A stretch of 64,000 nucleotides of DNA from Lebetimonas sp. JH292 (GTDB lineage: Bacteria; Campylobacterota; Campylobacteria; Campylobacterales; Nautiliaceae). The translations under genes were made by a program, and so were the position numbers. Shown one piece after another: positions 24,310 to 55,174 of this stretch (positions are counted from its first letter, which is position 1; the number at the start of each line of letters is the position of its first letter). Under the pieces are notes generated by a model. The model was not told where the DNA came from and did no database searches. It saw only the letters and a list, made by a program, of their open reading frames with translations. The stretch spans positions 1 through 64,000 of the forward strand of contig NZ_ATHQ01000001.1 in assembly GCF_000523275.1 (NCBI RefSeq), given 5' to 3'.

Positions 24310-24796
24310 ATGAAATACATTTTTATTAATTTTTATTATTACTATTTCAAATGCCCTAAATTTACCAAAAGAATTTAAAGCCAAATTCACCCAGTATATA
24401 TATTCTAAAGACAAAAAATTAACTTATAAAGGAATAGTTATACTTAAAAACAATGAAATTTACTGGAAATACACATATCCTAATATTAAAGAGATATGGA
24501 TTAAAGATAAAGTTTATATTTATGAGCCTGATTTAATGCAGGTTACTATTTCAAAAAAAGCGAAATTAAATCTTTTTAAGATATTAAAAAATGCTAAAAA
24601 ACTTGATAAAAATTTATATGTTGCAATTAATAACAAAAAAGAGATATATTTTATTTATGATAAAACTCTTAAAAAAGCATGGTATACGGATGATATCGGA
24701 AACAAGGTTGAAATTTATTTTAAAAAAACAAATAAAAACATTTCTATTCCACCGCTTAATTTTCCAAAAGATATCGATATTATTTATCAGAATTAA
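24310..24796 (+). CDS. lolA: LolA-like outer-membrane lipoprotein carrier, signal-peptide frame shifted
   Basis: From about 24320 the frame reads NALNLPKEFKAKFTQYIYSKDKKLTYKG, then GIVILKNNEIYWKYTYP and IKEIWIKDKVYIYEPDL, the beta-sheet pattern of LolA, a periplasmic carrier of lipoproteins. The mature length (about 150 residues) fits. The start ATG at 24310 opens MKYIFI in a different frame. One extra T in the T5 run at 24320-24324 joins it to MKYIFLLIFIITISNA, a good signal peptide ending at A before LNLPKE. Without that base only an internal start at 24536 remains, which would give half a protein. The 3' end overlaps the convergent Na/Pi gene by 17 bases. Confidence 0.78.
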
Positions 24797-26360
24797 GAAG
24801 CATAATATTTCTAAGTGATTTAATGTAACTTTTGGATAAATGCAGCATATTTATCATTATTGCGTTAATTTCGGCACTTACTTTTGAAGTTTTGGAAATC
24901 AGTTTGATTATATCGCTTGCCCTTTTATATGATTTGGCAATCTGGTCATATATATTTTCTATTTCCTCATACACATTTTCCCCGTTTAAATATTTTCTGA
25001 ATAAAATTGTGGCTTTTAAAATCTGATATCTAATATTTTGTAAAAATTCTTCAAGCCCTTCTTCTTCATAAATTTTTTCAATATCTCCCAGCATATCTTT
25101 TATGGATTTTACAGCGGTAGCTAGATACATTGTTTTTTTAAACAGTTTTACAATATTTTCATCCTGATTCAGCTGTGATATAAATTTATAAATTTCCCCT
25201 TCTATTTCCCTGATTTCATTATACAGTTTATTAAAATCGACATCAATTAATTCGCTGTTTTCTTCTAAAATTTTATCTATAGACTTATCTGTTTTAGAAG
25301 GAGGGACAAATATCGCAAGAAGAGCGAAATTGCTGACTTTTTTGGCAAGCCTGTTTATTTCTTTGTTCAAAGCGTCGAGAGCTAAATTTAAAATATTAAT
25401 GTCAACTGCATTTATATACTTAACAACACTTCTTTTTTTATCTTTTATTATTTTTTTAAGTAATTTTGAATAAAAATCAATAAAAGGAAACCATATAATT
25501 ACGCCCAAAACATTAAATAACGTATGAAAAAATGCTATTTTTAAAACATTGTCCAGCCCGTTCGTAAAATAAAGGGTAATTTCAACCAGATATTTAATAA
25601 AAATAAAAGCAACCACCCCTACACTTATATTAAATAAAACATGAGCTAAAGCAAGCCTTTTTTTATCTGAATTTCCTTCAATAGAACCTATTACAGCGGT
25701 AACAGTAGTACCAATATTCGCACCTATTACAAAAGCGGCTGCCATTTTAAAATCAACCACACCGCTAAAAAGCGCACTCTGGATTATTGCAATAGAAGCA
25801 GAACTTGATTGAATAATTCCTGTTATTATAAAACCGACCAGTAAAAAAACAATTAAAGGATAATTCTTAAATTCGTTTATATCAATATTTTTAGAAAAAC
25901 CCTCCATTGCATCTTTCATAATTTCAAGTCCGTAAAACAAAAGTCCTACAGCAAACACTAAAAGCAAAATTCTTTTTATTTTTTCATTTTCTATCAAAAT
26001 ACTAAATCCGCCAAGACCAATAAAAAAATAAAAAAGAGGTGTTAAATTAACTTCAAATCCAAAAACAGCAACTATCCATGCTGTAAATGTCGTCCCTATA
26101 TTCGCCCCGAAAATCACTGCAACAGCATTTTCCAGATTAATTAACCCGACACCGATTAAAGAAAGAATTATTAAAGTTATAAAAGACGAGCTTTGAAAAA
26201 GAGCTGTAAAAAATATTGAAGAAAAAAACGCTTTTATTTTACCGCCTGTGAGTTTATTAATAATTTCTTTAAAGGATTTTGATGAAAGTTTTCTTAAAAT
26301 ATCTTCAAACAGATATATTCCGAATAAAAAAAGTCCAAGACCTGCCAGAGCCTGAAGCAT
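24780..26360 (-). CDS. Na/Pi-cotransporter family protein with C-terminal PhoU-like domain
   Basis: This 526-residue protein has two inverted membrane repeats, each with the family signature: FQSSSFITLIILSLIG and later IQSSSASIAIIQSALFSG, plus GANIGTTFTAW and GANIGTTVTAV. About 310 residues of membrane domain are followed by a helical, charged PhoU-like tail (about 320-526). This matches NptA/YjbB-type sodium-phosphate transporters, which import or export phosphate. The start overlaps the IMPase stop by one base, so they form a pair. Confidence 0.92.
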   Translation of the reverse strand: MLQALAGLGLFLFGIYLFEDILRKLSSKSFKEIINKLTGGKIKAFFSSIFFTALFQSSSFITLIILSLIGVGLINLENAVAVIFGANIGTTFTAWIVAVFGFEVNLTPLFYFFIGLGGFSILIENEKIKRILLLVFAVGLLFYGLEIMKDAMEGFSKNIDINEFKNYPLIVFLLVGFIITGIIQSSSASIAIIQSALFSGVVDFKMAAAFVIGANIGTTVTAVIGSIEGNSDKKRLALAHVLFNISVGVVAFIFIKYLVEITLYFTNGLDNVLKIAFFHTLFNVLGVIIWFPFIDFYSKLLKKIIKDKKRSVVKYINAVDINILNLALDALNKEINRLAKKVSNFALLAIFVPPSKTDKSIDKILEENSELIDVDFNKLYNEIREIEGEIYKFISQLNQDENIVKLFKKTMYLATAVKSIKDMLGDIEKIYEEEGLEEFLQNIRYQILKATILFRKYLNGENVYEEIENIYDQIAKSYKRASDIIKLISKTSKVSAEINAIMINMLHLSKSYIKSLRNIMLLNSDK

Positions 26361-27112
26361 CAGAAATACTTTAAAAATTTTATATGAATAATTCCATTAC
26401 TTGCAATTATGCATTTATCTTCAAACATATTATATTCGCTTCCTTTTTCATTACTAACCTTGCCTCCGGCTTCACTTAAAATAATAATCCCTGCACTTAC
26501 ATCCCAGGGCTTCAGATTTGTTTCATAATATCCGTCAAATTTCCCTTCAGCCACATAACATAAATCTAAAGCCGCACTTCCAAATCGTCTAATATCCTGG
26601 CATTTTGGCAAAATTTTTGAGAGTTTTTCAATCACCCAGTTTAAATCATCCCTGTTTTCAGCACCCGAATATGGAAAACCTGTTGCAATCAATGCCCTCC
26701 CAAAATCACTGAATTTACTGACTTCTATTTTTTTACCGTTTTTATATGCGCCGCCTCCAGCCTCGGCATAAAAAAGTTCATCCAAAACAGGATTATAAAC
26801 AATACCGAATCTTGGTTTTTTTTCTTCATAAACGCCCACACTTATTGCACAGTGAGGAATTTGATGAAAAAAATTGGTAGTTCCGTCAATCGGATCTATT
26901 ATTATTGAATTGTTAAACTCTTCTTTTGTCGATTCTTCCGCAATAATGGAATAATTAAATTTTGAAAATTTTTCTTTTAAAAACTCTTCTATTTTTATAT
27001 CGTAATTTGTAACTAAATCTTTTTTACCTTTTAGACTTACTTCTTTAGCCGAATAAAACCCTTTTTTAAATATCTCTCCCGCCTCTTTTATTATTTGAAT
27101 AAATTTTTCCAT
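26360..27112 (-). CDS. Inositol-monophosphatase family phosphatase
   Basis: The 250-residue enzyme belongs to the lithium-sensitive IMPase/SuhB/CysQ family. Metal and substrate motifs are present: EESTKEEF with the first glutamate, IDPIDGTTNF, and WDVSAGIIILSEAGG near the C-terminus. It may act on inositol-1-phosphate, 3'-phosphoadenosine-5'-phosphate or another small sugar phosphate; the sequence does not decide. Release of phosphate would fit its pairing with the Na/Pi transporter downstream. Confidence 0.9.
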   Translation of the reverse strand: MEKFIQIIKEAGEIFKKGFYSAKEVSLKGKKDLVTNYDIKIEEFLKEKFSKFNYSIIAEESTKEEFNNSIIIDPIDGTTNFFHQIPHCAISVGVYEEKKPRFGIVYNPVLDELFYAEAGGGAYKNGKKIEVSKFSDFGRALIATGFPYSGAENRDDLNWVIEKLSKILPKCQDIRRFGSAALDLCYVAEGKFDGYYETNLKPWDVSAGIIILSEAGGKVSNEKGSEYNMFEDKCIIASNGIIHIKFLKYF

Positions 27113-27167: not shown

Positions 27168-28412
27168 TTATTTTAATTTATTCATTACCAATTTAAAAAC
27201 CATTGCCATTAAACTGACCCAAAAAAGCCCAAGTCCAATTCCTGCTATTACATCACTTAGATAATGAACATTTAAATAAACTCTTGTAAATGAAATTAAC
27301 AGAGGATAAATTATACACAAAATAAGCAGTATTTTTTTATTCACTTTATCTTTAAAAATTAAATATAAACTAAAAGCAAGTGCTGTACTTAATGTGGCGT
27401 GACCTGATGGGAAAGAATAACCTCCTACTTCTATTAAATAATGCGGGGGCCTCGGTCTTTTTACTATATTTTTAATAATTTCAAATAATACCGCCGCACC
27501 TGAAACTGACGAAATAAAGAACAAAGCTTTATAATATAATTTTTTAAAAATTAAAAATAAAACTATTAAAATTATAATCATCGTAACTTCCAAAGGATTA
27601 TCAAGAGATGTTATAAAAATCATTATTTTATTAAGTAAAGGATTGTAAATTTCATGAATATGTGAACTTATGTAAAAATCCCATTTTGTAATTAATTCCA
27701 AATCGGTTACATCTTCAAGCATTTTAAAAAAAAGATAAAGCCCGAAAATGTTTAAAATTAAAAGTTTTGTATCTTCTTTTTGAAAAAATTTTTGATAATG
27801 TTTGTAAAATTTATATATAAAATAAGCAATAATTGTGGCGGCTAAAACCCCAAGACCGAAATATTTTCCATAAATTTCAAATATATCGCCTAAGAAATAT
27901 CCGCCCAAAATAAAAACAGACGCCCAGAAAACTCCTGTTAAAATATTTGCAAGAACAAATTTTTTAAAATTAGCCTTATTTGCACCGGCTAAAAATGGGA
28001 CAATCCAGCGGGTTATACTGGTAGTCCTTCCTATAAAGAGGGCTTTAATTAAATTATCGTTTATTAAAAATTTTATTTTGTTATATTTTTGGGGTGTAAT
28101 TTTTAATTTTTTAGCATGACTTTTTATATATTCTTCTCCTAATTTCCTGCCTAAATAAAACCCTATTATATCACCTATAAGCAAGCCTAAAAATGCAGTT
28201 AAAATAGCTATTTTTAAATCTACAATCCCTTTGTATGCGAAAATCCCTAAAATAACAGTATAAGTTTCCATTGGAAAAAACATTCCCAAAACCGGCAGGG
28301 ATTCAATAATTGAACCGACAAATAAAACACTAAGCAGTATTAAATTAACTGTATCTTTTGGGAAAACAGACATGTAATTAAAAAATTGTTCAATAAGCTG
28401 ATGCAGATTCAT
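27168..28412 (-). CDS. DedA-PAP2 fusion membrane protein
   Basis: This 414-residue inner-membrane protein joins two domains. Residues 1 to about 200 are DedA/SNARE-associated (SLPVLGMFFPMET, GDIIGFYLGRKLGEEYI, FIGRTTSITRWIVPFLAGANK). Residues about 230-414 are a PAP2 phosphatase with all three catalytic motifs: KRPRPPH, SFPSGHAT, and RVYLNVHYLSDV. DedA proteins include the undecaprenyl-phosphate flippases, and PAP2 enzymes include undecaprenyl-diphosphate phosphatases, so one chain could both dephosphorylate a carrier lipid and return it across the membrane. It overlaps the EI24 gene upstream by 23 bases. Confidence 0.92.
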   Translation of the reverse strand: MNLHQLIEQFFNYMSVFPKDTVNLILLSVLFVGSIIESLPVLGMFFPMETYTVILGIFAYKGIVDLKIAILTAFLGLLIGDIIGFYLGRKLGEEYIKSHAKKLKITPQKYNKIKFLINDNLIKALFIGRTTSITRWIVPFLAGANKANFKKFVLANILTGVFWASVFILGGYFLGDIFEIYGKYFGLGVLAATIIAYFIYKFYKHYQKFFQKEDTKLLILNIFGLYLFFKMLEDVTDLELITKWDFYISSHIHEIYNPLLNKIMIFITSLDNPLEVTMIIILIVLFLIFKKLYYKALFFISSVSGAAVLFEIIKNIVKRPRPPHYLIEVGGYSFPSGHATLSTALAFSLYLIFKDKVNKKILLILCIIYPLLISFTRVYLNVHYLSDVIAGIGLGLFWVSLMAMVFKLVMNKLK

Positions 28413-29091
28413 TTCTGATTTCCTTTAATTTATTTAAATTGAAATGTGTAAATAAAATTAATTGGATAATATAAACAAAAACACCAAAAAGGGGAATTAA
28501 AAATAAAGCAGCCAAAATAAATGATAAAACCAAAATAGAAAATTTATATCTTTTTTTAATAGTAAAATATTCTTTTTTATCAGCTATCATCGCTAGTGAA
28601 TCATAAAAAAGGGGTTCTTTAATTAAAATTACCCATAAAATAAGATGTACCAACATATTTAATCCAGGTACAAACATTAAAGGCAGTGCAATAATAAACA
28701 ATATAATAAATATAATATTATATTTTAATGAAACAACAACACTTCCTATAAATCTTCCAAAGCCGTTTGTTTTTAGATGATAATATTTTTCATTTATTCT
28801 CTCAACAATTTTATCTGCTATAATACCTGCAATCATAACAGATGTTATAATTAAAAGCTCATAATAAAGCAGTATTCCACCTATTGCTTCAACCAAATTG
28901 GCTATAAAATTATTAGTTCCTATAAAAGGAATATGAGAAATTATAAAAAGTATAAAATTATGTATTTGAGTGTGAAACACAAAAAACACAACTCCCCAAA
29001 AAAATGCCGCAATAATTATTGGAATAAGCGAAGTTAATAATATTTTTTTATCAAACAAATCTTTTATAGATTTTATAAATATTTCAATCAT
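28390..29091 (-). CDS. EI24 domain-containing (CysZ-like) membrane protein
   Basis: The 233-residue protein has four or more membrane helices (about 18-45, 62-95, 128-155 and 188-215) and the EI24/CysZ pattern: FIKSIKDLFDKKILLTSLIPI, ALPLMFVPGLNMLVHLILWVILIKEPLFYDSLAMI. CysZ transports sulfate in some bacteria, but EI24 family members vary and Campylobacterota versions are uncharacterised. It is the first gene of the minus operon leading to the DedA-PAP2 fusion, transcribed from the divergent control region at 29.1 kb. Confidence 0.8.
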   Translation of the reverse strand: MIEIFIKSIKDLFDKKILLTSLIPIIIAAFFWGVVFFVFHTQIHNFILFIISHIPFIGTNNFIANLVEAIGGILLYYELLIITSVMIAGIIADKIVERINEKYYHLKTNGFGRFIGSVVVSLKYNIIFIILFIIALPLMFVPGLNMLVHLILWVILIKEPLFYDSLAMIADKKEYFTIKKRYKFSILVLSFILAALFLIPLFGVFVYIIQLILFTHFNLNKLKEIRNESASAY

Positions 29092-29118: not shown

Positions 29119-29188
29119 ATATTAATAGTTTATACTGAAATGAAAATGAAATTTTTTTCATTATCATTTCATTGGCTCTATTTATAAT
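29119..29188. promoter_or_regulatory. Divergent control region with two back-to-back TTTCATT heptad pairs
   Basis: A 36-base near-perfect palindrome (29136-29171, 15 of 16 arm bases pairing, TTTT centre) consists of TTTCATT direct repeats facing both ways. Rightward: TTTCATT at 29156-29162 and 29167-29173 (11-bp period), then 9 bases, then TATAAT at 29183-29188 before the glycosyltransferase gene. Leftward on the minus strand: TTTCATT at 29151-29145 and TTTCAGT at 29140-29134 (11-bp period), then 9 bases, then TAATAT before the EI24 gene. Tandem heptads with 11-bp period are the usual layout for OmpR-family regulators. The same TTTCATT pair precedes the PAP2-DedA-RR-HK operon at 55.1 kb. A Fur-type site was considered but fits less well. 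Confidence 0.62.
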
Positions 29189-29208: not shown

Positions 29209-30999
29209 ATGAAAAAAGCGCTTTTTGCAATAAGTTCACTTGGACTTGGACATGCAACAAGAACACTTCCTGTTATAAAACATTTTGCAAAAGAGTATAA
29301 AATTGATATTATAAGCTATGCAAATGCTTTGAATTTCTTAAAAGAGGAACTAAAAGAATATAATAATATTAATTTTATTGAAATTGAGGATTACCCTCCG
29401 CTTGAAAGAGGTGATGGAATTTGTTATTACCTTTATTTAATACAAGATTTGATAAAAACAAATTTAATAATAAAAAAAGAAAACAATTTTGTAAAAACCT
29501 CTTCGCAAAATTATGATTTTATTTTCAGTGACGGAAGATACGGAATTTATTCAAAAGAAATACCATCGTTTTTACTTTCTCATCAAATATCATTTGCAGT
29601 TGATAATTTTTTTAAATATTTTAAATTTTTAAGTGATATAGGTAATATTTTATATTTCAGGAATTTTAATACAGTTTTTATACCTGATTTTGAAGATATC
29701 AAATTTTCATTAGCCGGCAGACTTTCCCACAATTATCTAACCAAATTTTTTAATCATAAATACATAGGTATACTCTCTTCTTATAAAAAAATGGACTTGG
29801 AAAAAGACATAGACTATCTGTTTGTTATAAGCGGATATCTGTTAGAGAAAAAAGAACATTTTATATCAAAACTTATTGAAGAAGCTAAAAAACTTGAAGG
29901 TAAAAAGGTTTTTGTTTTAGGTGATCTTACAAAAAATGAAATTAGACAAATAAAAGAGCATAATATAACAATTTATCCAAATGTAACTAAAGAACTTAGA
30001 CTTGAACTTTTCAACAGAGCTAAAAAAATAATTTCAAGAACAGGCTATACAACTATTATGGATTTGGTTGAAATTGAAAAAAAAGCAATTCTGTTTCCTA
30101 CAAAAAACTCATCCGAACAGGAATATCTGGCCAGATATCATAAACATAAAGGATATTTTGTTATTGGAGATGAAGATAATTTTGATTTAACAGAACTTGA
30201 CGCACAGACTCAAAACATAAAACCTTTTGATTTTCCATCAAAAACAAAAGAAGCCATTAATTTAATAGATAAAACCGTTAAATCGTATTTTAAAAAAAAT
30301 TTTTTTTCAATTATTATCCCAGTGCATAATGAAGAAAAATATCTGCCAAAAGTTTTTGAAAAATTATCAGAAATTGAATATGAAAATTACGAAATTATTG
30401 CAGTTGAAAACGGCTCAACAGATAACAGCTATAAACTTTTAAAAGAATACGAACAAAAAAATAATAAATTTAAAGTTTATAAAAGCAAAAAAGGCATATC
30501 TATTGCAAAAAACGAAGGTTTGAAACATATTTCTCAAAACAGCGATTATGTTATTTTTTTAGACTGCGACACATATTTTGAAAAAGATTTTTTAAATGAG
30601 CTTAATAATTTTTTAAATAAAAACAGTAATAAACCTTATTATATAGGAACCACTTCAATAAAACCGTCTGATAGTAATTCAATTTATGATAAATTATGGT
30701 TTAAAATTTTTGACATTTTTCATAAATTTACTAAAACTTCATATTCTATTCAAATTGCAAAAAGCGATATTGCTAAAAAAATCGGGTTTGATGAAGAACT
30801 TAATTTTTCCGAAGATTTAAAATTTATAAAATATTTATTGATCTACGGTGATTTTTTCTTTGTAAATACAGATAAAGTTTATTCATCAACAAGACGTTTT
30901 ATAAAAAACGGATATTTTAAAACTGTTTTTGAATGGATTTTACAGGCAGTTATGCCTAAAAGCAAAAAAAGAAATAAAGAATATACAATTTACAGATGA
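29209..30999 (+). CDS. Two-domain glycosyltransferase (MJ1255/GT28-like plus GT2)
   Basis: The 596-residue protein fuses two transferases. Residues 1 to about 345 resemble the MJ1255/MGT-type GT-B family (KKALFAISSLGLGHATRTLPV, SDGRYGIYSKEIPSFLLSHQ, RTGYTTIMDLVEIEKKAILFPT). Residues about 362-596 are a GT-A family 2 transferase (SIIIPVHNEEKYLPKVFEKL, VENGSTDNSYKLL, FLDCDTYFEKDFL with the DxD-like acidic site). No signal peptide is seen; it probably acts at the inner face of the membrane on a lipid acceptor. It overlaps the next gene by 4 bases (ATGA). Substrates unknown. Start ATG follows AAAAGGTAAAAA. Confidence 0.88.
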   Translation: MKKALFAISSLGLGHATRTLPVIKHFAKEYKIDIISYANALNFLKEELKEYNNINFIEIEDYPPLERGDGICYYLYLIQDLIKTNLIIKKENNFVKTSSQNYDFIFSDGRYGIYSKEIPSFLLSHQISFAVDNFFKYFKFLSDIGNILYFRNFNTVFIPDFEDIKFSLAGRLSHNYLTKFFNHKYIGILSSYKKMDLEKDIDYLFVISGYLLEKKEHFISKLIEEAKKLEGKKVFVLGDLTKNEIRQIKEHNITIYPNVTKELRLELFNRAKKIISRTGYTTIMDLVEIEKKAILFPTKNSSEQEYLARYHKHKGYFVIGDEDNFDLTELDAQTQNIKPFDFPSKTKEAINLIDKTVKSYFKKNFFSIIIPVHNEEKYLPKVFEKLSEIEYENYEIIAVENGSTDNSYKLLKEYEQKNNKFKVYKSKKGISIAKNEGLKHISQNSDYVIFLDCDTYFEKDFLNELNNFLNKNSNKPYYIGTTSIKPSDSNSIYDKLWFKIFDIFHKFTKTSYSIQIAKSDIAKKIGFDEELNFSEDLKFIKYLLIYGDFFFVNTDKVYSSTRRFIKNGYFKTVFEWILQAVMPKSKKRNKEYTIYR

Positions 31000-31630
31000 G
31001 CGAATTAATAAATCATTTTATAAAAATATTAATTGAATACAAAGAAATAGCGTATTTTATTTTATTTTTCGGTTCTATGCTTGAGACCGTTATAGGTTTT
31101 TCGTTTTTTATTTACGGAGAAATTGTTTTTTTAAGCGGCGCAATTTTGGCCGGAATGGGAATACTAAATATCTGGATTGTAACATTTGTTTTATATCTTG
31201 GAGGGATAGTTGGAGATAATATAAGCTATTTTTTAGGCAGAAAATATGGAATGCAGTTATACTTTTTAAATATTTTATAAACAAAAAAAATTATAAAAAA
31301 GGTCTGAAAATATTCAGGCGTTATGGAGCTTTTAGTGCATTTATGGGAAGGCTTTTAGGACCTCTTTCATGGGTGACGCCTTTTATTTTAGGTGTTTATA
31401 AACTTGATTATAAAAAATTTCTTCCTTTTGAAACAGCAGGAGTGATAATAGGTATAGGCCAGTTTATTATAATAGGCTATCTTTTCGGCAGACATTTTGA
31501 AAAAATTCTGAGCTTTGTTTCAGGATATTTTATATTTGTTGTTTTTATCTTATTGATTTGTCTGTTATTATTTTATTATTTAAAAAAAATAAAATTTTTT
31601 CATAATTTAAAAAAACATAAAAATATTTAA
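30996..31630 (+). CDS. DedA-domain part of a frameshifted DedA-LssY protein
   Basis: Two overlapping frames carry one DedA domain. 30996-31280 gives LETVIGFSFFIYGEIVFLSGAILAG and GDNISYFLGRKYG. 31343-31630 gives GRLLGPLSWVTPFILGVYKLDYKKF. The missing middle is present in the second frame further upstream (FINKKNYKKGLKIFRRYGAFSAF), so a single base is lost near 31247-31251. At the 3' end the frame stops at 31630, but one extra A in the A5 run at 31619-31623 would fuse it to the LssY frame that follows. DedA proteins are lipid flippases; this one sits between a double glycosyltransferase and a deacetylase. Confidence 0.8.
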
Positions 31631-32364
31631 TCAAATATTTAACAACACATTCTACAGTTTTTTTAATTATTTCCACAATAATTTATTTTTCTTTTCTCTT
31701 TTTTATATTTTTTATTAACCAGCCGCATAAAACACATTACAACCCCCATCCGTATAATACTAAATTACTTAAAAAAATAAAATCTTGCAAAAATCTCGGT
31801 ACATATTACATTGATAATCCAAAACATATAATACAGCCTATAAATATTATTTTAATCTCTAAATTATCTTTAAGTGAAATTCTAAATCATGACTGGATAA
31901 AAAACGATATTTTCGGTCATAATCATATCTCTTTTAGAGAATATATTAATCTTTTAAAAGATAAAGTACCGCCAGTAAGTTCATTATATTTTTTAGGTGT
32001 GTCTCAAAATTTTGCTTATCAGTATAAAAGTAATTCACTTTCTAAAAGAGAGCATATAAGATTTTGGATTTTTAAAGATAAAAACAGTTCATTTAAAAAA
32101 TATTATGCAACAATTTCATTTGATAACGGATATGATTTTACTTTTTATCATTATTTTTTCACTCCTATTCATAAAATATCTAAAAATATCGATAAAAGCA
32201 GGGATTTTTTCTATAAATATCTAAAATCAAGAAAAGATTTAAATGTTAGTTGTAAATATATTCAGACAAAATGCAAAATAAAAGAGATAAAAGGCGACAA
32301 TGAAGCAAGTGAAGAGCAGATGTTTTATACAGACGGTAAAATTTTGGAGTGTAATATAAAATGA
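31621..32364 (+). CDS. LssY C-terminal-like domain, probably fused to the DedA domain before it
   Basis: The frame is open from just after a TAA at 31618-31620 to 32364 (247 codons) but has no standard start before GTG at 31999. It begins with a hydrophobic helix (about 31654-31722), then reads PPVSSLYFLGVSQNFAYQ, HIRFWIF, ATISFDNGYDFTF and HKISKNIDKSRDFFYKYL, the pattern of the LssY_C domain that follows DedA or PAP2 domains in other bacteria. This supports one DedA-helix-LssY protein of about 455 residues, interrupted here. LssY_C is of unknown function. It ends with a 4-base overlap with the deacetylase. Confidence 0.7.
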   Translation, partial: KYLIKYLTTHSTVFLIISTIIYFSFLFFIFFINQPHKTHYNPHPYNTKLLKKIKSCKNLGTYYIDNPKHIIQPINIILISKLSLSEILNHDWIKNDIFGHNHISFREYINLLKDKVPPVSSLYFLGVSQNFAYQYKSNSLSKREHIRFWIFKDKNSSFKKYYATISFDNGYDFTFYHYFFTPIHKISKNIDKSRDFFYKYLKSRKDLNVSCKYIQTKCKIKEIKGDNEASEEQMFYTDGKILECNIK

Positions 32365-33251
32365 AACAGATATTTATCCACGCAGATGACTATGGCAATA
32401 CAAAACATATATCAGAAGTTATATGTAAATGTATAGATGAGGGGGTATTAAATTCTGTAAGTATTATTGTAAACAGTGATGCATTAGATTATTCACTGCA
32501 ATTAATTAAAAATAAAAACATCAGAAAAGTGCTTCATCTAAACATCACAGAAGGCAAACAGCTTTCAAAACAAAATTTTCATTATTTAACCGATAACAAA
32601 GGATGTTTTTTTAGAAGTTGGCAAAGACTTTTTTTTGAATACTATTTTTTATGGAATGAAGATAAAAGAAAAGCTATAAAAGAGGAGATAAAAGAAGAGT
32701 TTAAAAATCGGATTATATTGTATTGTCAAAAGCTAAATACAAAAGATATAAATATTGATTCTCATCAGCATTTTCACACAATCCCTTTTATTACAGATAT
32801 TTTAATTGAATTAAAAAATGAAATGGATATAAAGATTTTAAATATAAGAGTTCCCAAAAGTGATTTCGTAATATCTATTAGTTCATTTGATGATTTGGTA
32901 AAATATTTGGGAATACCTGTTTTTGTATTTTTGTTATTAAATAAATTATCAAACAAAATGATTAAAAAATTTCAAAAAGAAAATATAAAACATAATGATA
33001 AATTCGTTAATACCCTGTTTTGTGGAGATATGAAACTGAAAACTATCAAAAAAGAGATAAATAATGCAAAAAATTCCAATAATATAGAAATATTACTTCA
33101 TCCCGGATATATTTCAGAAGAAGAAGCGAAAGAATTTGAAGAGAATCAGTTCAAAAAATGGTATCTGCATAAAAACAGAAAAAAAGAGAAAAATTTATTG
33201 TTGTCTAAAGAGTTACAAATTTTTGTAAATAGCTTTAGATACAATTTATAA
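32361..33251 (+). CDS. ChbG/HpnK (YdjC-like) carbohydrate deacetylase
   Basis: The 296-residue enzyme has the YdjC-family metal site: HADDYGNTKHIS near residues 7-18, DSHQHFHTIPFITD in the middle, and ILLHPGYISEE near the C-terminus. Family members remove N-acetyl groups from sugars such as diacetylchitobiose (ChbG) or hopanoid-linked glucosamine (HpnK). Overlap with the LssY frame and the glycosyltransferase upstream suggests it trims a sugar the transferase puts on a lipid. Start ATG overlaps the previous stop. Confidence 0.88.
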   Translation: MKQIFIHADDYGNTKHISEVICKCIDEGVLNSVSIIVNSDALDYSLQLIKNKNIRKVLHLNITEGKQLSKQNFHYLTDNKGCFFRSWQRLFFEYYFLWNEDKRKAIKEEIKEEFKNRIILYCQKLNTKDINIDSHQHFHTIPFITDILIELKNEMDIKILNIRVPKSDFVISISSFDDLVKYLGIPVFVFLLLNKLSNKMIKKFQKENIKHNDKFVNTLFCGDMKLKTIKKEINNAKNSNNIEILLHPGYISEEEAKEFEENQFKKWYLHKNRKKEKNLLLSKELQIFVNSFRYNL

Positions 33252-37571: not shown

Positions 37572-38870
37572 TCATAAAATTACTGTTACTATAGTGCCTT
37601 TATTGAGTTGTGAAACAATTTGAAGATTACCGTCAATTAAATTTAAGAAGTTTTTAACAATAGAAAGCCCGAGTCCATAACCTTCTATTTTTTTATTTCT
37701 GCTTTCATCAGTTCTGTAAAATCTTTCTGTTATTTTATCTATTTTATCACCAGGTATTCCAATCCCTTCATCCTTAACAATAAAATATACTTTTTTATTT
37801 TTTAAATATAATGAAATGTAAATATTTTTCCCACTTGGAGTATATTTAACAGCATTATCAATAATATTTTTAAAAATAGTTTTAATTAAAAAGCAATTTG
37901 TTTCTTTTTCAATTTTTTCAAACTTCAATAATTCAATATTTATATTTTTTCTTTGAGCTGTTGAAGCATATTTTTCTATTACATCAAGTAAAATACTGTT
38001 AAAATCGCATATTGAAAATGTTTTTTTTACACTATATTTGTCATATTTTGTTATTAACAATAATTCGTTAATTATCGTTTCAATTTTTTGTATTTCAGTT
38101 TGTAATGTTTTTAAAGTATTTTTATAATATTCAATGTTTCTTTCTTTTTTTAACGCTAATTCAATGCTCATATCAATTACAGTTAAAGGAGTTTTAAGCT
38201 CATGAGAAACATCGCTATTGAATTTTTCAATTCTTTCAATACCGTTTTTTAATCTTTCTATCATATTATTAAAATTATCAACAAGTTCATCTATTTCTTT
38301 ACCGTTATTTGAAAAATTTATATAAGAATTCAAATTATTTATATTTATTTTTCTTACTGTTTTATTAATTTGTTTTATAGGATTTAAAATTTTATTTAAA
38401 ATATTATTTGCTAAAAAAATAAAAAGAATTAATAATAACACTTCAAGAAAAATTAAAATAGAGATAAAGCTTTCCATATTATCATCAAAATTATTCTTAG
38501 CAATTAAAATATAACGGTTATCATCTTTTAAAGCATAAAACACATCTTCATGACCATTTGTATGCAGGGCAAAAAAATTTTTTTTATTTTTTATACGAGT
38601 TAACAAAATTTTATCTTTTATTTCAAACTTCCCAAATTTATAAATTACTTTATTGTTTTTTACAATTAAAAAAGGATATTTAAATTTTCTGTTTTGATAG
38701 TTTTCAGAGTTTTCAATTTTTGATGCTTGTGTATATAATTCATTTTTGATATTTGAAATATTTTTTTGTTTTAAAAGGATATAAAAAGAAATTGTAAATA
38801 TTGTAAATAATATAAATGAAACTAATCCAAAATACAACAGTATTTTTATTTTTATACTTTTATGTTTCAA
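37572..38870 (-). CDS. Sensor histidine kinase of the PepSY-linked two-component system
   Basis: The 432-residue kinase has two membrane helices (about 10-32 and 135-155) around a small periplasmic domain, a HAMP linker, the H-box FNSDVSHELKTPLTVID, the N-box KNIIDNAVKYTP, and G-boxes VKDEGIGIPGDKI and YGLGLSIVKNFL. Start is TTG, 11 bases inside the regulator's 3' end. Closely related to the kinase at 51582-52856. Confidence 0.92.
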   Translation of the reverse strand: MKHKSIKIKILLYFGLVSFILFTIFTISFYILLKQKNISNIKNELYTQASKIENSENYQNRKFKYPFLIVKNNKVIYKFGKFEIKDKILLTRIKNKKNFFALHTNGHEDVFYALKDDNRYILIAKNNFDDNMESFISILIFLEVLLLILFIFLANNILNKILNPIKQINKTVRKININNLNSYINFSNNGKEIDELVDNFNNMIERLKNGIERIEKFNSDVSHELKTPLTVIDMSIELALKKERNIEYYKNTLKTLQTEIQKIETIINELLLITKYDKYSVKKTFSICDFNSILLDVIEKYASTAQRKNINIELLKFEKIEKETNCFLIKTIFKNIIDNAVKYTPSGKNIYISLYLKNKKVYFIVKDEGIGIPGDKIDKITERFYRTDESRNKKIEGYGLGLSIVKNFLNLIDGNLQIVSQLNKGTIVTVIL

Positions 38871-39516
38871 TTTTATAACCTAAACCTTTTATACTTTTTA
38901 TAAAATTTTTACCAAGTTTTTTTCTTAAATGGTAAATTATTACAGGTACTAAATTACTTTCATTAATTTTTTCATTATTCCATAAATATTCTTCTATCAT
39001 CATTTTAGAAACATAAGAGTTTTTTCTTTTTACAAGTAACATTAAAAGTTCGTATTCCTGTGCCGTCAAATCAATAATTGAAGATTTTTTTTTAACAATT
39101 TTCTTATCTGTATCAATAACAATATCTTTTATGCTAATAATATTTTGTCCGTTTAAAACCATTCTTCTATAAATAGCTTCTATTCTTGCCTGCAATTCCT
39201 GAAGGCTAAAAGGTTTGGGCAAATAATCATCAGCACCTGTTTTCAATCCTTTTATTTTATCTTCAATATCACCTTTTGCCGTAAGCATTATAACGGGTGT
39301 TGTAATATTTTTTTCTCTTAATGTTTTTAAAACATCAATACCGCTCTTTTCAGGCAGCATCCAATCTAAAATAATAACATCATATTGATTTAGTATTGCC
39401 AAATATTCACCATCTGCTCCATTTTGCGCAATATCAATAATAAAGCCTTCCTCCTTTAAATGTTCTTTTAATAAAGAGAGGATGTTTAAATCATCCTCTA
39501 CAATTAAAATTTTCAT
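38860..39516 (-). CDS. OmpR-family response regulator
   Basis: The 218-residue regulator has a receiver domain with DD near 8-9, phospho-acceptor D in VIILDWMLPEKSG, T in MLTAKG and K in YLPKPFSL, followed by a winged-helix DNA-binding domain (LTAQEYELLMLLVKRKNSYVSK, then VIIYHLRKKLGKNFIKSIKGLGYKI). It is co-transcribed with the PepSY gene and the kinase. The TTTATTT heptads at 40.0 and 37.5 kb are its likely targets. Confidence 0.94.
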   Translation of the reverse strand: MKILIVEDDLNILSLLKEHLKEEGFIIDIAQNGADGEYLAILNQYDVIILDWMLPEKSGIDVLKTLREKNITTPVIMLTAKGDIEDKIKGLKTGADDYLPKPFSLQELQARIEAIYRRMVLNGQNIISIKDIVIDTDKKIVKKKSSIIDLTAQEYELLMLLVKRKNSYVSKMMIEEYLWNNEKINESNLVPVIIYHLRKKLGKNFIKSIKGLGYKIET

Positions 39517-39525
39517 TATTGTTTC

Positions 39526-39972
39526 CTAATTGTCATTATTGTCATTTCCGTTATCATTTTCACTTTCGTCACTGTTGTTGATATTTTCTTTATTGTCCAT
39601 TTGATCAGAATCATCAACTTTATCAGAAACAACACTTAGTATTTTACCATTACCTGAGTCCACATATATATCTGTAGTTTTATTATTACTAAAAACTTCT
39701 GCTTTATACACTAAGTTTCCATCTATATCCTCAAGCTTAATACCAGTTATTTTACCGTTATGAAAACTGTTTTTAATTTTTTTAGCTACATCTAAAGCAC
39801 CTATTTTTGCATCTTTTTTTTCACTGATTTCTGAACCTGCAATTTGAATGGAACTTTTTATTACTACATCTTTTCCACCATCATCATTTGTTTCAATGTC
39901 TCCCGCCATTGCTACACTTCCAACTAAACCTAATATTACCATACTTTTAACAAAATATGAATTTTTTTTCAT
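39526..39972 (-). CDS. Secreted PepSY-domain protein with acidic Asp/Asn tail
   Basis: The 148-residue protein has a signal peptide cleaved after MVILGLVGSVAMAG, one PepSY domain (about 50-115, GALDVAKKIKNSFHNGKITGIKLED then LVYKAEVFSNNKTTDIYVDSGNGKIL) and a tail rich in D, N, E and S. PepSY proteins often inhibit or modulate periplasmic enzymes or sensors. As the first gene of the two-component operon it may act as a partner of the kinase. Confidence 0.82.
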   Translation of the reverse strand: MKKNSYFVKSMVILGLVGSVAMAGDIETNDDGGKDVVIKSSIQIAGSEISEKKDAKIGALDVAKKIKNSFHNGKITGIKLEDIDGNLVYKAEVFSNNKTTDIYVDSGNGKILSVVSDKVDDSDQMDNKENINNSDESENDNGNDNNDN

Positions 39973-40299
39973 GTCAAATCCTTTAATGTTTTTTTTATTG
40001 CAGCCAAATTATATATCTTCTAAATAAATCAAAAATAAAAAAATAATTTTTATTTGAGTTTTTCTTATAAACAAGAATCATTTAGCACTAATTTAATAGA
40101 ATCTTTAAATTTCGTTAAAAAAAACAGAATATGAAGGCTTATTCCATTCAAAGTAGTAGCTTTTAAAATATTTTCCTTCAGTAGAGGAGGTTATTCAAAA
40201 ATTTAAAAGCCCCAGAGCAAGAAATTATTATAATGAATGCTATTAGTATGAAGTTGATTGTCTGCTTTTAATATCATAAAAACAGACAATCGGAAAGTT
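39973..40299. other. Intergenic stretch without a gene
   Basis: This 327-base gap holds the PepSY operon promoter at its left end (40008-40039) and a hairpin at its right end (GATTGTCTG 40256-40264 with CAGACAATC 40283-40291), which may end the porin transcript. Between them, 40064-40250, short frames such as RLIPFKVVAFKIF and RGGYSKI are seen but none continues. It may be old, decayed coding or insertion sequence. No gene is claimed. Confidence 0.5.
40008..40039 (-). promoter_or_regulatory. Promoter of the PepSY-RR-HK operon with TTTATTT heptad pair
   Basis: On the minus strand TTTATTT-TTGA-TTTATTT (40039-40022) stands 8 bases before a perfect TATAAT (40013-40008). The same block and spacing occur before the COG4705 gene. 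This is the geometry expected of an OmpR-type regulator that activates its own operon. Confidence 0.62.
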
Positions 40300-41547
40300 T
40301 TAGAAATTATAAGTCAAATATAATCTATAGTTTTTAACTGGATTTTTATCATATTCAACATCTTCAAAGTGGAATTTTACTCCAAGACCTTTTAGAACAT
40401 TTTTAAATTTATATGAAGCAATTAAATCATAAGCATTTAGATCTTTTCCACCGTTTAATGTTCCGTTTGAACCTACCATGTAATCAGTATATCTTCCCAA
40501 AAGCATTATTTTTTTAGCAAATTTATATTTTAAATTTAAAGATAAAGCATTTACATCTTTTTGATAATTTTCAAGACCTATGATGTCACCTGCGTATGCC
40601 CAATTTGATGAAATACCTACACCTGAGACCATACCTTTGTCCTTATTGGCTATCGTATAGCCTAAACTTGTAATAAAACCATTGTATTTTGTCGCCAATT
40701 TAAATCCTAAAAGATCTCCACTTACACTGTTATCATTGTCAACATTACTTGAGCCGTATTGGATTCCTGCAAGCATACCAAGACCGGCTGCTTTAAATTT
40801 ATATTCAGCTTGAGCAAGAGCTACGGAGATATCACCCATATTATCACCTGTTTTGGCTATGGTTGCATTTTTTATTTTTAAATATTGTCCTGTTAGTTTT
40901 AAACCTTTTATAGTTTGATTTTGTACTAATGCAGTCCATATACCATCACCCAAAGTATACTTATATTTTGCTCCGTACATAAAAATCTTTTTATCGAATT
41001 TACCTACACCTCCCCCATTTGCACCTTTAAAGTTTGTTCTTGTTAAATATTTATCAACGTAACCGACAAATATTTTAGTTTTCGGCAACTCTTTTGTAGT
41101 AGCAGTATAACCTTCAAAAGATTCGTGGATTATTCTTGAACCGTTACCTGCAAGAAGAGGAGTTTGAATAAATTGTCTTCCTATTTTAAGCGAACTTTTT
41201 TTATATTTATATTTCAAATAAGCCTCTTCCAAGACAGCTCCCGGACCATAAAGATCTGCCTTATAAAAGTTTTTTGCTTCTGAGCTAGCCCAAGGGGAAT
41301 CACTGCTTTGAAATCTAAAGCCGGCACTAAATCCATAAAAATCACCAGTTACATAATTTAGCATAACACCAAGACTCAAAATACTTTCTTTACCTTTTGA
41401 GCCTTTATCTACATTATAATTTATAGCTTTTAACTGGCCTTTAATTTTTCCATTTTTAAACGCATCACTTAAAGAGTCTCCCGCATTTGCACTCATAGCC
41501 AATGTTGCCAAAACCACTAAGCTTAAACTTATATTTTTTAATTTCAT
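40300..41547 (-). CDS. Outer-membrane porin (Opr family)
   Basis: The 415-residue protein has a signal peptide (MKLKNISLSLVVLATLAMSANAG) and then alternating beta strands ending in NYRLYLTYNF, with the aromatic last residue needed for outer-membrane insertion. GQLKAINYNVD and LKIGRQFIQTPLLAG are typical of the OprD-like porins of Campylobacterota. An upstream in-frame start at 41610 is less likely; the ATG at 41547 has AAAAGGAGTATAAAA before it. It follows the TtrA-like gene by 2 bases, so it probably admits that enzyme's substrate. Confidence 0.88.
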   Translation of the reverse strand: MKLKNISLSLVVLATLAMSANAGDSLSDAFKNGKIKGQLKAINYNVDKGSKGKESILSLGVMLNYVTGDFYGFSAGFRFQSSDSPWASSEAKNFYKADLYGPGAVLEEAYLKYKYKKSSLKIGRQFIQTPLLAGNGSRIIHESFEGYTATTKELPKTKIFVGYVDKYLTRTNFKGANGGGVGKFDKKIFMYGAKYKYTLGDGIWTALVQNQTIKGLKLTGQYLKIKNATIAKTGDNMGDISVALAQAEYKFKAAGLGMLAGIQYGSSNVDNDNSVSGDLLGFKLATKYNGFITSLGYTIANKDKGMVSGVGISSNWAYAGDIIGLENYQKDVNALSLNLKYKFAKKIMLLGRYTDYMVGSNGTLNGGKDLNAYDLIASYKFKNVLKGLGVKFHFEDVEYDKNPVKNYRLYLTYNF

Positions 41548-41549
41548 TT

Positions 41550-44500
41550 TTATACTCCTTTTACTTTTTTTATTTTTACTGGAATCGCATGTCTTGCATT
41601 TGAACCGCATACAAAGTCGCTTGCAGTTTGCATACCAGCAGTCGGATCTAAAAGACCAATCTTGTTTATGTCTACACCGCTTTTTCTTCTTATTATAGCT
41701 TTTATCGTTTTGCCATTTATAACAATATTTTCAGCTCCGCTAGCATCTCTTCCAAGGCCATGTTCAACACCTATGCATCCAGGCATTACCCCATTTCTGT
41801 ATCTCAGATATCCCTTTACTTTTCCATATTCTGATGCAACTTCTACCAAATCACCAAGATTCAGACCAAACTCTTTGGCAGTTTTTGGATTTAGATCTAT
41901 ATATGTTGTAAATCTTATTTCGGCCAGATTATTGCTGTTTGCATCAGGAGTTGCCAACACATTTGATTTAAAAGAAAAAGCTGTTAACGGATACTTGTCT
42001 TTAGGATATATTTCGTCATATGTTTTTCCCCCAACTTGTCTTTGCTTAAAAAATTTGATAGTTCCGCTATATCTTTCACCTGTTAGTGAATTTCTTGTAG
42101 TACCAACTGTTTCATTATATATTTGTACAGGTTTTTTATATTGATGAGCGAGAAATTCACCTTTATAACTGTCTTCTACATCTTCATATCTTCCCCCTCT
42201 AGCCATCACATATGCTGTTTTTCTCCAGTTTTTTCCACAGATTCTTTTAAGTGAAGGGACATAATCTTCTATACCACTGAGCTTTATATCCTCATCAGTT
42301 GCATCTGGTACTGGTGTACCATCCATTGCAATATTTTCAAACGCCCTTAAATATATATCCTCAGCTTTATTTAACGGATACCAGTTACCATCATTTCCTT
42401 TTATGGCTTTTTCTCCAAAACCGGGAAGTTTTAACTTTTTACCAAGAGCTATCATAAAGCTAATCATTTCTATTGGTTCCCCGTTTTTAAAAGTAGCTTG
42501 TTTTGGCTTTACAACAGGAAACCTCAACGTATTACATTTAGTTAAATAACCATTCCATACATGCACAATTCCCCAAGTCTCATAAAGGACAGAATCCGGC
42601 ACGATATAATCAGCATATTTGGATGTGTCATTTATAAATGGGTCAACTGCAATAAAAAGAGGAATAGATTTTTTTGGATCAGCTAAAAGCTCTTTCATTT
42701 TACTTTCTGAACCACTTGTCCCATATAAAAAGTCAGAACTATTAGTTATTAATACATCCAACTTATAAGGATAACCTTCGGCACTATTATTTAATATATG
42801 ATGTGAAAGCTGGCTTGTAAATGGAAACCAATTCCCTTTTGCAGGATATGGATTTTCACCTTTGGCTAATTTATTTTTATACTCATTTGTTTTTTCATAT
42901 GACATTCTTGCTCTATCTATTCTTGTAGCTTTTATATTCGGTTTTCCTTTATATGCAAAAAGATTATATTTTTTACCTATAAAATCTTTATAAGCTCCTC
43001 CGCCTGCACTCATTCCGCCTTTATAGTTTAAGCTTCCCACCATTGCACCTAACAACATTACAGCATAAGCTGTATAAAAACCTGTAGTATGCATTGTGCC
43101 TCCATGACAGTCAACACTTGCTTTTCTGCCATGAGTAACAAGTTTTTTCGCTACTTCCTGCATAGTTTCTATACTAACTCCGCACTCTTTGGAATACTCT
43201 TGCAAACTTAATTCATTTACATTTTCTTTTAACTCATTAAAAGAAGTTCTTACACTGTATGTTTTTCCTTTGTATTCAACACTGCCTTTAAAATCAAGCA
43301 CTGCCTGAATCACATCATTTGAAGATTTTAAAGTATTGTCAGTTGCATCTAAAACCAAAGGAATTTTGCCATCTTTTAGTATTTTTCCAAACCCATCTTT
43401 ATCTTGAATTATTAAATGTGCAGCATTTGTCCAGGAAACATCATTCAATGCTTTCATAGCTTTTGCTGAAGGCATAGATAGATATTTTTTATTATACATT
43501 TTATTATTTATAATAATTTGTAAAACTCCCATTACAAATGCCAAATCAGTTCCGGGCTTTATAGGTATCCAATGACTTCTTGTTCCGGCTGATATCATAT
43601 CACTATTGCCTTGCATCGGAGATACTATAGTATAGTCTATATTGCCTTCACTTCTAGCACGAGCTAAAAGCTTACCTTGTCTTTTAAAAGGATTGCCTGC
43701 TTGCCCCGGAGGTGTTCCAATACTAAGCAGATACTCGGTATTTTCAAAATCAGGCTTTAAATGTGGATATTTTTTAAAATTACCAAGATATGCTGCTTCT
43801 CCGGCTCTCATGGATAAACCGCAAGTTGCACCATGACCCGCCCAATTACAGGTACCGAAAGATTTTAAAAATCTATTTACAACTACTTTAAATCTTCCTT
43901 CATGAGTAGTGCCAATAAAACATAACCCGTTTGATTTGGGTCCAAATACAGGCTCATCAGGATTGATAGGAGTTTTAATGTCTCTTACATCTTTCAATCC
44001 CTTCACATGTCCTTCTCCAAAAAGATTACCACCATTTACTATTTCATCTATAAGTTGCTCAATTTCAATCTCTTTCCATTTGTTTTCACCCCTTTTTCCA
44101 ACTCTTTTTAAGGGTTTTAAAACTCTAAATTTATCATCTATTTTATCAAAGACTGCATTACCTCTGGCGCATACATTGGATCTATATTTTTCAAATTTAC
44201 CATTTTGGGACAATATTTCATAACTTTCTTTTATACTTGTATTATACGGTAACCAAGGATCACTTGAGAGAAGATTATAAGGGTTGCCAAAAACTCTGAG
44301 TACTTTATCAGTTTTTTTATCTATTTTTACTCTAACACCGCACTGAGTTACACAACCTATACAAGTCGTGGGACAGATTTTAAAATCATCATTAGGCACG
44401 AACTGATCATTTACATAACTGTACTCTGGCTTGTAAGAATTTCCATAAATAGGATCTTTTGCTTTTTCACCATCCGTTGACATTGTCACAGCTTGTTTTA

Positions 44501-44582
44501 AAGTCTTTTTATAGCCCACAATAGAAGCAGAAGCTGCTACAGCAGATGTTCCAATTAAAAAATTTCTTCTTTTTTTATCCAT
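41550..44582 (-). CDS. ttrA: TtrA-like molybdopterin oxidoreductase catalytic subunit
   Basis: This 1010-residue protein begins with a Tat-like signal (KKRRNFLIGTSAVAASAS). A 4Fe-4S site is formed by C70, C74, C77 and C81 (CPTTCIGCVTQC). GNPYNLLSSDPWLPY is typical of tetrathionate-reductase TtrA and its relatives. GATCGLSMRAGEAAYL near residue 250 supplies a likely cysteine ligand to molybdenum. The C-terminal molydopterin-binding fold is complete. It should work in the periplasm with the TtrB-like and NrfD-like subunits to reduce tetrathionate or a related sulfur compound with electrons from quinol. Arsenate or polysulfide reduction cannot be excluded. Confidence 0.82.
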   Translation of the reverse strand: MDKKRRNFLIGTSAVAASASIVGYKKTLKQAVTMSTDGEKAKDPIYGNSYKPEYSYVNDQFVPNDDFKICPTTCIGCVTQCGVRVKIDKKTDKVLRVFGNPYNLLSSDPWLPYNTSIKESYEILSQNGKFEKYRSNVCARGNAVFDKIDDKFRVLKPLKRVGKRGENKWKEIEIEQLIDEIVNGGNLFGEGHVKGLKDVRDIKTPINPDEPVFGPKSNGLCFIGTTHEGRFKVVVNRFLKSFGTCNWAGHGATCGLSMRAGEAAYLGNFKKYPHLKPDFENTEYLLSIGTPPGQAGNPFKRQGKLLARARSEGNIDYTIVSPMQGNSDMISAGTRSHWIPIKPGTDLAFVMGVLQIIINNKMYNKKYLSMPSAKAMKALNDVSWTNAAHLIIQDKDGFGKILKDGKIPLVLDATDNTLKSSNDVIQAVLDFKGSVEYKGKTYSVRTSFNELKENVNELSLQEYSKECGVSIETMQEVAKKLVTHGRKASVDCHGGTMHTTGFYTAYAVMLLGAMVGSLNYKGGMSAGGGAYKDFIGKKYNLFAYKGKPNIKATRIDRARMSYEKTNEYKNKLAKGENPYPAKGNWFPFTSQLSHHILNNSAEGYPYKLDVLITNSSDFLYGTSGSESKMKELLADPKKSIPLFIAVDPFINDTSKYADYIVPDSVLYETWGIVHVWNGYLTKCNTLRFPVVKPKQATFKNGEPIEMISFMIALGKKLKLPGFGEKAIKGNDGNWYPLNKAEDIYLRAFENIAMDGTPVPDATDEDIKLSGIEDYVPSLKRICGKNWRKTAYVMARGGRYEDVEDSYKGEFLAHQYKKPVQIYNETVGTTRNSLTGERYSGTIKFFKQRQVGGKTYDEIYPKDKYPLTAFSFKSNVLATPDANSNNLAEIRFTTYIDLNPKTAKEFGLNLGDLVEVASEYGKVKGYLRYRNGVMPGCIGVEHGLGRDASGAENIVINGKTIKAIIRRKSGVDINKIGLLDPTAGMQTASDFVCGSNARHAIPVKIKKVKGV

Positions 44583-52856: not shown

Positions 52857-53499
52857 GCCTGTATCCTAAACCTCTGTAATTTTTGATAATATCCCCTACT
52901 TTTTTTCTAAGATGATACATTGTAACGGCAATTACATTATTATCAATATATTCTTTTTCTCTCCATAGTTCATCTTTTATTTTTTCATTTGATATATAAG
53001 CATTTTTGTTTTTTATCATAAATAAAAGAAGTTCATACTCTTTTGCGGTAAGCTTAATAATTTTATTGTCTTTTTTAACTTCCTTAGTATTTAAATCTAT
53101 TTCCAAATCTTTAATTTTTAATATATTTTGATATGTTTTTAAATTTCTTCTGATAAGTGCTTCTATTCTGACTAATAATTCTTCAAATTCAAAAGGCTTT
53201 GTTAAATAATCATCTGCCCCGCTTTTAAAACCTTTTATTTTATCACTGAGTTCACCTTTAGCAGTAAGCATTAAAATCGGGGTATTTATTTTTTCTTTTC
53301 TCAAATGCTCAATTATTTCAATTCCTGACATTTTAGGCAACATCCAGTCTATAATAATCAAATCATAATTATTAATTTCTGCCAAATATTCCCCTTCTTC
53401 CCCGTCAAGGGCAAAATCTACTTTTTTACCTTCTTCTTCAAGCCCCCTTTTTAAAAAAGAAACAATTTTTTCATCATCTTCAACCAAAAGAATTTTCAT
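52846..53499 (-). CDS. OmpR-family response regulator of the PAP2-DedA operon
   Basis: The 217-residue regulator has the acidic pair VEDDEKI, phospho-acceptor in [35 protein letters not shown], and a winged-helix domain [21 protein letters not shown] with [22 protein letters not shown]. Strongly similar to the regulator at 38860-39516. It overlaps dedA by 20 bases. Likely targets are the TTTCATT heptads at 55.16 kb and 29.15 kb. Confidence 0.94.
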
Positions 53500-55142: not shown

Positions 55143-55174
55143 ATTATAATGGGGAAAATGAAAAAAGAATGAAA
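55143..55174 (-). promoter_or_regulatory. Promoter of the PAP2-DedA-RR-HK operon with TTTCATT heptad pair
   Basis: On the minus strand TTTCATT (55174-55168), CTTT, TTTCATT (55163-55157), 8 bases and a perfect TATAAT (55148-55143), 20 bases before the PAP2 start. The 7-mer is the same as in the divergent region at 29.1 kb. Candidate autoregulatory site of the operon's own regulator. Confidence 0.66.

Follow-up and report, generated by a model that had tools for sequence, protein, structure and literature searches.

The divergent gap at 29.1 kb of the 64,000-nucleotide stretch of Lebetimonas DNA analysed here (the window) carries repeated TTTCATT heptads in front of two operons for envelope proteins, and a similar pair occurs at 55.1 kb. 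The locus raises the question of whether such pairs bring three lipid-related loci under one regulator and, if so, under which one. The pairs can be regarded with good confidence as operators of an OmpR-family two-component system, belonging to a regulator clade represented here by RR1 and its paralogue RRA, that would activate three envelope-lipid operons.

Architecture of the heptad pairs

In the gap between the EI24 and glycosyltransferase genes, two pairs stand back to back and point outward, each with an 11-bp period. The rightward pair, TTTCATT-ATCA-TTTCATT (TTTCATTATCATTTCATT, 29156-29173, + strand), faces the glycosyltransferase operon and is kept before glycosyltransferase orthologues; a TATAAT -10 box (29183-29188, +) follows 9 nt past its second heptad. 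The leftward pair, TTTCATT-TTCA-TTTCAGT (TTTCATTTTCATTTCAGT, 29134-29151, - strand), has one mismatch, faces the genes for EI24 and a DedA-PAP2 fusion, and is followed by a -10-like box, TAATAT (29119-29124, -), at the same distance of 9 nt. The third pair, TTTCATT-CTTT-TTTCATT (TTTCATTCTTTTTTCATT, 55157-55174, -), precedes an operon encoding a PAP2 enzyme, a membrane protein, a DedA protein, a response regulator and a histidine kinase, with a TATAAT box (55143-55148, -) 8 nt past the second heptad. Start codons follow the pairs at 35, 42 and 33 nt, respectively. The preliminary description of this DNA had claimed outward-facing pairs (one copy TTTCAGT) of 11-bp period with 9 bases to the -10 box, and a third pair of equal period before the PAP2 operon; coordinates and spacing agree with both claims. 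The fuller consensus, drawn from column counts over 26 non-redundant promoter sites, consists of two 11-bp units (TTTCATTTTCATTTCATTTTCA), the consensus unit being TTTCATTTTCA, which occurs twice in tandem.

The distance to the -10 box is fixed in most of these promoters. TATAAT (at least 5 of 6 positions) lies exactly 9 nt past the second heptad at 18 of the 26 sites and at 8-9 nt at 21 of them, whereas 5000 shuffling trials average 2.1 and never exceed 9. Direct repeats with a period of 11 and a constant 9-nt distance to the -10 box across genomes are what an operator of the OmpR/PhoB family looks like. Assuming the usual distance from -10 box to transcription start, the first heptad would span about -39 to -33, with the second at about -28 to -22, and OmpR-family activators, for instance PhoB and PmrA, typically show this class II layout over the -35 position.

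Repressors also bind over the -35 position, and the motif is T-rich, so that a repressing regulator, or pairs that serve as promoter elements (UP or extended -35) read by RNA polymerase itself, can be imagined. Either is unlikely: the operator promoters combine good -10 boxes with the absence of -35 hexamers near TTGACA, which is the architecture in which OmpR-family activators, PhoB and PmrA among them, substitute for the -35 element, and the motif follows the regulator clade rather than promoters generally.

Position of the pairs in the genome

It is position, rather than abundance, that sets the window pairs apart. At 2 mismatches the window holds 15 copies of the bare pair against 11.2 expected from shuffles, no significant enrichment, and density by itself therefore proves nothing. 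Across the 1.64-Mb genome, TTTCATT-N4-TTTCATT has 4 exact matches, two in the window and two in coding sequence, and 23 matches at no more than 1 mismatch, while the reversed control gives 14 at 1 mismatch. Apart from one AT-rich site, the three window sites are the only ones of the 23 to lie between genes with a start codon close ahead; nearly all the rest fall within coding regions or coincide with AATGAAA gene starts read in reverse. The genome-wide pattern search called for by the preliminary description thus confines promoter placement to the window pairs, bar the one AT-rich site. This site, at C2:55418 before an alanyl-tRNA synthetase homologue (matrix score 18.8), was excluded as an AT-rich run lacking a proper -10 box.

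A 33-bp matrix trained on 23 sites, all from foreign genomes, gives the three window sites scores of 25.8, 19.1 and 18.9, the top three of the window; the next window match, in coding sequence, scores 12.8, and the best score on 20 Markov-simulated windows is 19.6. The same three sites rank first among the sampled candidates of their own genome.

Operons behind the pairs

On the leftward side, the preliminary description had named EI24 and a DedA-PAP2 fusion as the genes faced by the pair. Both are present, with the EI24/CysZ-family membrane protein first (233 aa, 28390-29091, -; Pfam PF07264, 3.8e-22) and the DedA(VTT)-PAP2 fusion second (414 aa, 27168-28412, -; PF09335 and PF01569), but two more genes follow on the same strand. 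They encode an inositol-monophosphatase family protein (26360-27112, -; PF00459, 1.7e-60), co-directional after a gap of 55 bp, and a Na+/Pi cotransporter (24780-26360, -; PF02690, 1.2e-45), and possibly belong to the EI24 operon. The phosphatase and cotransporter (24780-27112) may make use of phosphate set free by the PAP2 enzymes.

The rightward operon begins with a double glycosyltransferase of 596 aa (29209-30999, +), GT-28/GT-1-like in its N-terminal part and GT2 in its C-terminal part, whose orthologues in Campylobacterota are 54-63% identical. Taken alone, the N-terminal half has homologues of 45-54% identity in Gracilibacteria, Patescibacteria, Woesearchaeota, Caldisericaceae and archaeal MAGs (L219-L221, L216, L223-L225), a distribution that suggests wide gene transfer. 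The DedA/LssY gene reported behind the glycosyltransferase is indeed there (30996-32364, +), but two frameshifts in the assembly split its reading frame; it is spread over three frames, with breaks at about 31.26 and 31.6 kb in sequence rich in A/T runs. Orthologues are single frames of 470 aa, an intact one being that of locus L181, and the break may mean that the gene is a pseudogene, or may stem from an assembly error or homopolymer slippage. The last gene encodes a YdjC/ChbG-HpnK family deacetylase (32361-33251, +; PF04794, 2.1e-35) that scores under the curated cut-offs for both HpnK and ChbG.

The third operon comprises a PAP2 phosphatase (54563-55123, -), which matches undecaprenyl-diphosphatase models best and falls below the equivalog cut-off; a small membrane protein without Pfam match (54064-54438, -); a DedA/UptA-like protein (53480-54088, -; PF09335, 1.3e-25; 102.7 bits to the UptA model, whose cut-off is 250); the response regulator RR1 (52846-53499, -); and the histidine kinase HK1 (51582-52856, -; HisKA and HATPase_c). 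RR1 has the receiver and effector domains of its family (PF00072, 2.7e-29; PF00486, 1.2e-17) and forms with HK1 a two-component system of the OmpR/PhoB type.

Conservation across Campylobacterota

The operator is found in seven families of Campylobacterota beside the regulator clade that contains RR1, kept at constant spacing before orthologous genes, as expected from the preliminary proposal that relatives should conserve it. Over 22 loci of the RR1/RRA clade, the pair at no more than 1 mismatch occurs in 18 of 326 upstream regions, while in control loci with a sister-clade (RRB-type) regulator it occurs in 0 of 101. When 42 letter permutations of the heptad are searched in place of the word itself, only register shifts score alike and the others give 0-2.

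The divergent arrangement is itself conserved. Locus L197 has DedA and EI24 on one side of two back-to-back pairs and the glycosyltransferase, DedA-LssY and YdjC on the other, as in the window, and L195, from a Nitratifractor MAG, has both pairs between EI24 and the glycosyltransferase. The operator stands before glycosyltransferase orthologues with 0 mismatches at 41 nt in L181/L198 (genome G358) and in L197, and with 1 mismatch in L195 and L196. The glycosyltransferase is the third gene of an operator-headed operon in G055 and in L222/L213, where the head operator has 2 mismatches (1 if read in an overlapping register). The full upstream region of the orthologue in L194 lacks the operator. 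In G002, a member of the Lebetimonas family and the one genome with a glycosyltransferase orthologue but only an RRB-type regulator, the gene stands without the operator. Homologues outside Campylobacterota (Halothiobacillus and others) have no operator upstream, which is expected, since the regulator is missing there. Close EI24 orthologues carry the pair at 1-2 mismatches in 4 of 4 cases, and distant homologues at no more than 2 mismatches in 0 of 27 (best 3, mostly 4-6); the majority of PAP2 orthologues carry the operator.

Other members widen the gene content. In G047 the operator precedes PepSY-RR-HK, EI24, PAP2, an ArnT-like PMT-GtrA-GT-YdjC operon and DUF347-YkuD; in G055, PepSY-RR-HK, DUF347-YkuD and PAP2-DedA-GT; in G025, GT2-LAB_N-PMT and a PEMT-family gene. 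The ArnT-like PMTs of the operator operons of G047 and G025 score below the ArnT equivalog cut-off. In G369 the operator stands back to back between PAP2 and EptA, the latter with an exact operator and a score of 671 bits against a cut-off of 500. At further loci the operator heads genes for LtaS-like enzymes, DedA-PAP2-LssY fusions, and efflux operons of the TolC-RND and MacAB types. The triple fusions that carry the operator (L276, L277, L137, L288) are about 680 aa long, and that of L276 adjoins LtaS-like and EptA genes.

That the pairs are functionless words, arising by chance in AT-rich DNA or as start-codon words (AATGAAA) read in reverse, is scarcely credible, even though the window shows no enrichment at 2 mismatches and several genome matches are indeed reversed AATGAAA gene starts. 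The constant -10 spacing, the conservation before orthologues in several families, the permutation control and the absence from the sister clade speak against it, and chance words were ruled out at the level of sequence conservation. Random density, an outcome named beforehand as speaking against the earlier proposal, does not describe the pair in promoter DNA.

Identity of the regulator

A regulator of the RR1/RRA clade (E<=1e-62) is present in 17 of 397 genomes of the phylum; G267, which lies outside the tree, was counted among them by identity. Of these 17, 14 have an operator with a -10 box at no more than 1 mismatch, as do 61 of the 380 others (p about 1e-8); for the exact operator the counts are 9 of 17 against 8 of 380 (p about 8e-10). 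The test treats genomes as independent, ignoring phylogeny, and its significance is overstated. Three of the 17 clade genomes have no operator with a -10 box at that threshold. The exact site of one non-carrier (G029, of the same genus as G047) lies at a contig end. In one other family, operator and -10 box precede a sodium:neurotransmitter symporter (SNF) gene in G337 (L280), G417 (L279) and G331 (L292); a clade regulator is carried by G331 and none was detected in G337 or G417. The RR1/RRA model does not account for these symporter sites, and a similar word may be recognized by regulators of another kind.

The genome holds two close paralogues of RR1. RRA (38860-39516, -), 54% identical, lies in a PepSY-RRA-HKA cluster (37572-39972), and the regulator tree places it with RR1 in one clade (100/99) that includes regulators of several other families. 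RRB (C1:868483), 56% identical, groups apart with Nautiliaceae-type regulators of its own family, and the recognition helix of its group differs (SNVINVYISHLRKK vs SNVIQVTIYHLRKK). Outside the seven families, identity to RR1 drops to about 35-50% among the regulators found.

The preliminary description had assigned all three loci to the regulator at 52846-53499, RR1. The operator does track the clade of RR1 and the PAP2, DedA, EI24 and glycosyltransferase genes, but the paralogue at 38860-39516 could bind these sites as well, so that RR1 is the favoured choice and no more. That the sites are genuine and mainly bound by RRA (with its PepSY protein and HKA), or shared by RR1 and RRA, is a possible though less probable arrangement: RRA belongs to the same supported clade, lies 9.6 kb from the 29.1-kb sites, closer than RR1, and has its closest relative in G047, where a consensus operator precedes that relative's own PepSY-RR-HK operon. 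The recognition helix of RRA, however, has diverged from the clade consensus (NLVPVIIYHLRKKLG vs NVIQVTIYHLRKKIG), whereas RR1 keeps the clade pattern, and the promoter of RRA itself has merely a degenerate pair, TTTTATT..ATTTATT, with TATAAT (TTTTATTTTTGATTTATT..., 40008-40040, -; matrix score 10.4), in contrast to the consensus operator of the RR1 operon. The degenerate pair may be the site of RRA, as if RRA and its promoter site had drifted together, a single case. RR1 is favoured as the binder of the three sites because its helix retains the clade pattern and a consensus operator heads its operon.

A third regulator, the CpxR-like RR2 (56269-56940), is encoded next to the PAP2 operon, beside a Spy/CpxP-like gene, and a weak pair (matrix score 9.9) precedes the Spy-RR2-HK2 operon. 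It is very improbable as the binder, for it stands well apart from the clade (at most 37% identity, end branch 4.67), and the operator loci of relatives have no RR2-like gene where RR1/RRA-type genes are present. RR2 was dismissed as the regulator on this phylogenetic distance and absence from related loci.

Computation establishes the sites with their spacing, conservation and gene content, and their co-occurrence with the regulator clade; for RR1, we infer binding, activation rather than repression, its use instead of RRA, and the chemistry, along the following lines. The phosphorylated regulator would bind the two 11-bp repeats (TTTCATTTTCA TTTCATTTTCA) over the -35 position as a head-to-tail dimer, recruit polymerase and activate transcription from the -10 box 9 nt away. 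Transcripts would then be made for EI24 and DedA-PAP2, perhaps with the phosphatase and the Na/Pi importer; for the double glycosyltransferase, the broken DedA-LssY and the YdjC deacetylase; and for the PAP2 enzyme, membrane protein, DedA protein, RR1 and HK1, the last operon implying positive autoregulation. The products would modify envelope glycolipids and recycle undecaprenyl-phosphate, much as PmrAB and PhoPQ regulons act on lipid A.

The most likely role is carrier-lipid recycling and surface-lipid modification under envelope stress. This assignment is based on the gene content of the regulon, including the EptA- and ArnT-type systems of relatives (the latter GT2 + GtrA or LAB_N + PMT), and on published links of DedA proteins to Ara4N modification and colistin resistance (PMC7835334, PMC6849406, PMC8692421). 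The reading of these loci as a lipid-carrier recycling and glycolipid-modifying system, first proposed from the window, agrees with this wider regulon and its EptA and ArnT-like enzymes.

Relation to known two-component systems

In the enterobacterial PmrAB (BasRS) system, too, an OmpR-family regulator acts on direct repeats that lie over the -35 position with a period of about 11 bp. Among solved structures, PmrA gives one of the better full-length matches to RR1, and the regulons of relatives hold EptA, ArnT-like, PAP2 and DedA genes together with their own two-component operon. In some genomes the regulon thus includes lipid A-modifying enzymes (EptA, ArnT-like), the mark of a PmrAB-like function. 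Unlike PmrA, however, for which the equivalog cut-off is 330 bits, RR1 and RRA score 172.2 and 185.3; the operator word, TTTCATT-N4-TTTCATT, is not a PmrA box, which is of the CTTAA type; and the regulon adds EI24, the double glycosyltransferase, DedA-LssY, YdjC, DUF347-YkuD and PepSY. The system would accordingly work like PmrAB, a likeness that stops short of identifying RR1 or RRA as PmrA.

Among the motifs compared, the nearest is that of C. jejuni DccR, WTTCAC-N6-TTCACW, which is built like TTCAT-N6-TTCAT. Genes of the MacAB type, part of the DccR regulon, are also found in operator-bearing relatives here. DccRS resembles the present system in being an OmpR-family system of Campylobacterota with membrane and periplasmic protein genes (PMC9449129). 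Separate from PhoB, RR1 scores 179.5 against a PhoB cut-off of 296.2, and the phosphate-uptake core of a Pho regulon is missing here save for the possible Na/Pi cotransporter of the EI24 operon. PhoB recognizes two 11-bp direct repeats just before the -10 box, the -35 being replaced, and its heptad TGTCATA resembles TTTCATT. In NCBIfam, RR1 and RRA both match the CzcR/SilR/CopR model best, as HK1 does the corresponding sensor model; the score of 203.4 is nevertheless below the curated cut-off of 279.2, and no metal-efflux content was seen in the conserved regulon, bar RND/TolC and MacAB-type operons.

In the literature searched, neither the motif string nor a description combining these genes in Campylobacterota was found. 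The shared switch very probably marks a genuine counterpart of the polymyxin-resistance (PmrAB) regulon, apparently one not described before. An even chance is given to the broader proposal of a new Campylobacterota regulon with an operator and a regulator clade of its own, an independent counterpart of PmrAB, that would couple undecaprenyl-phosphate recycling (PAP2, DedA, LssY fusions, EI24) to glycolipid assembly by the unusual double glycosyltransferase, with EI24, the glycosyltransferase, DedA-LssY and YdjC forming a new lipid-decorating pathway. A precise predicted operator and a defined regulator clade are thereby available for envelope-lipid modification, for which none has been described in this phylum in the searchable literature, and the operator can be used to locate more regulon members across Campylobacterota genomes. 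The poorly understood DedA proteins, DedA-PAP2-LssY fusions, EI24, DUF347 and double glycosyltransferase would be placed in one programme with EptA and ArnT-like enzymes.

Neighbouring gene clusters

Two further clusters adjoin the regulator genes. Just upstream of the PAP2 operon, the Spy/CpxP-like (LTXXQ) gene and RR2-HK2 form a CpxRA-like cluster (55193-57365). Upstream of the PepSY-RRA-HKA cluster and a porin-like ORF (40300-41610) lies a gene for a molybdopterin oxidoreductase of 1010 aa with a twin-arginine-like N-terminus (41550-44582).
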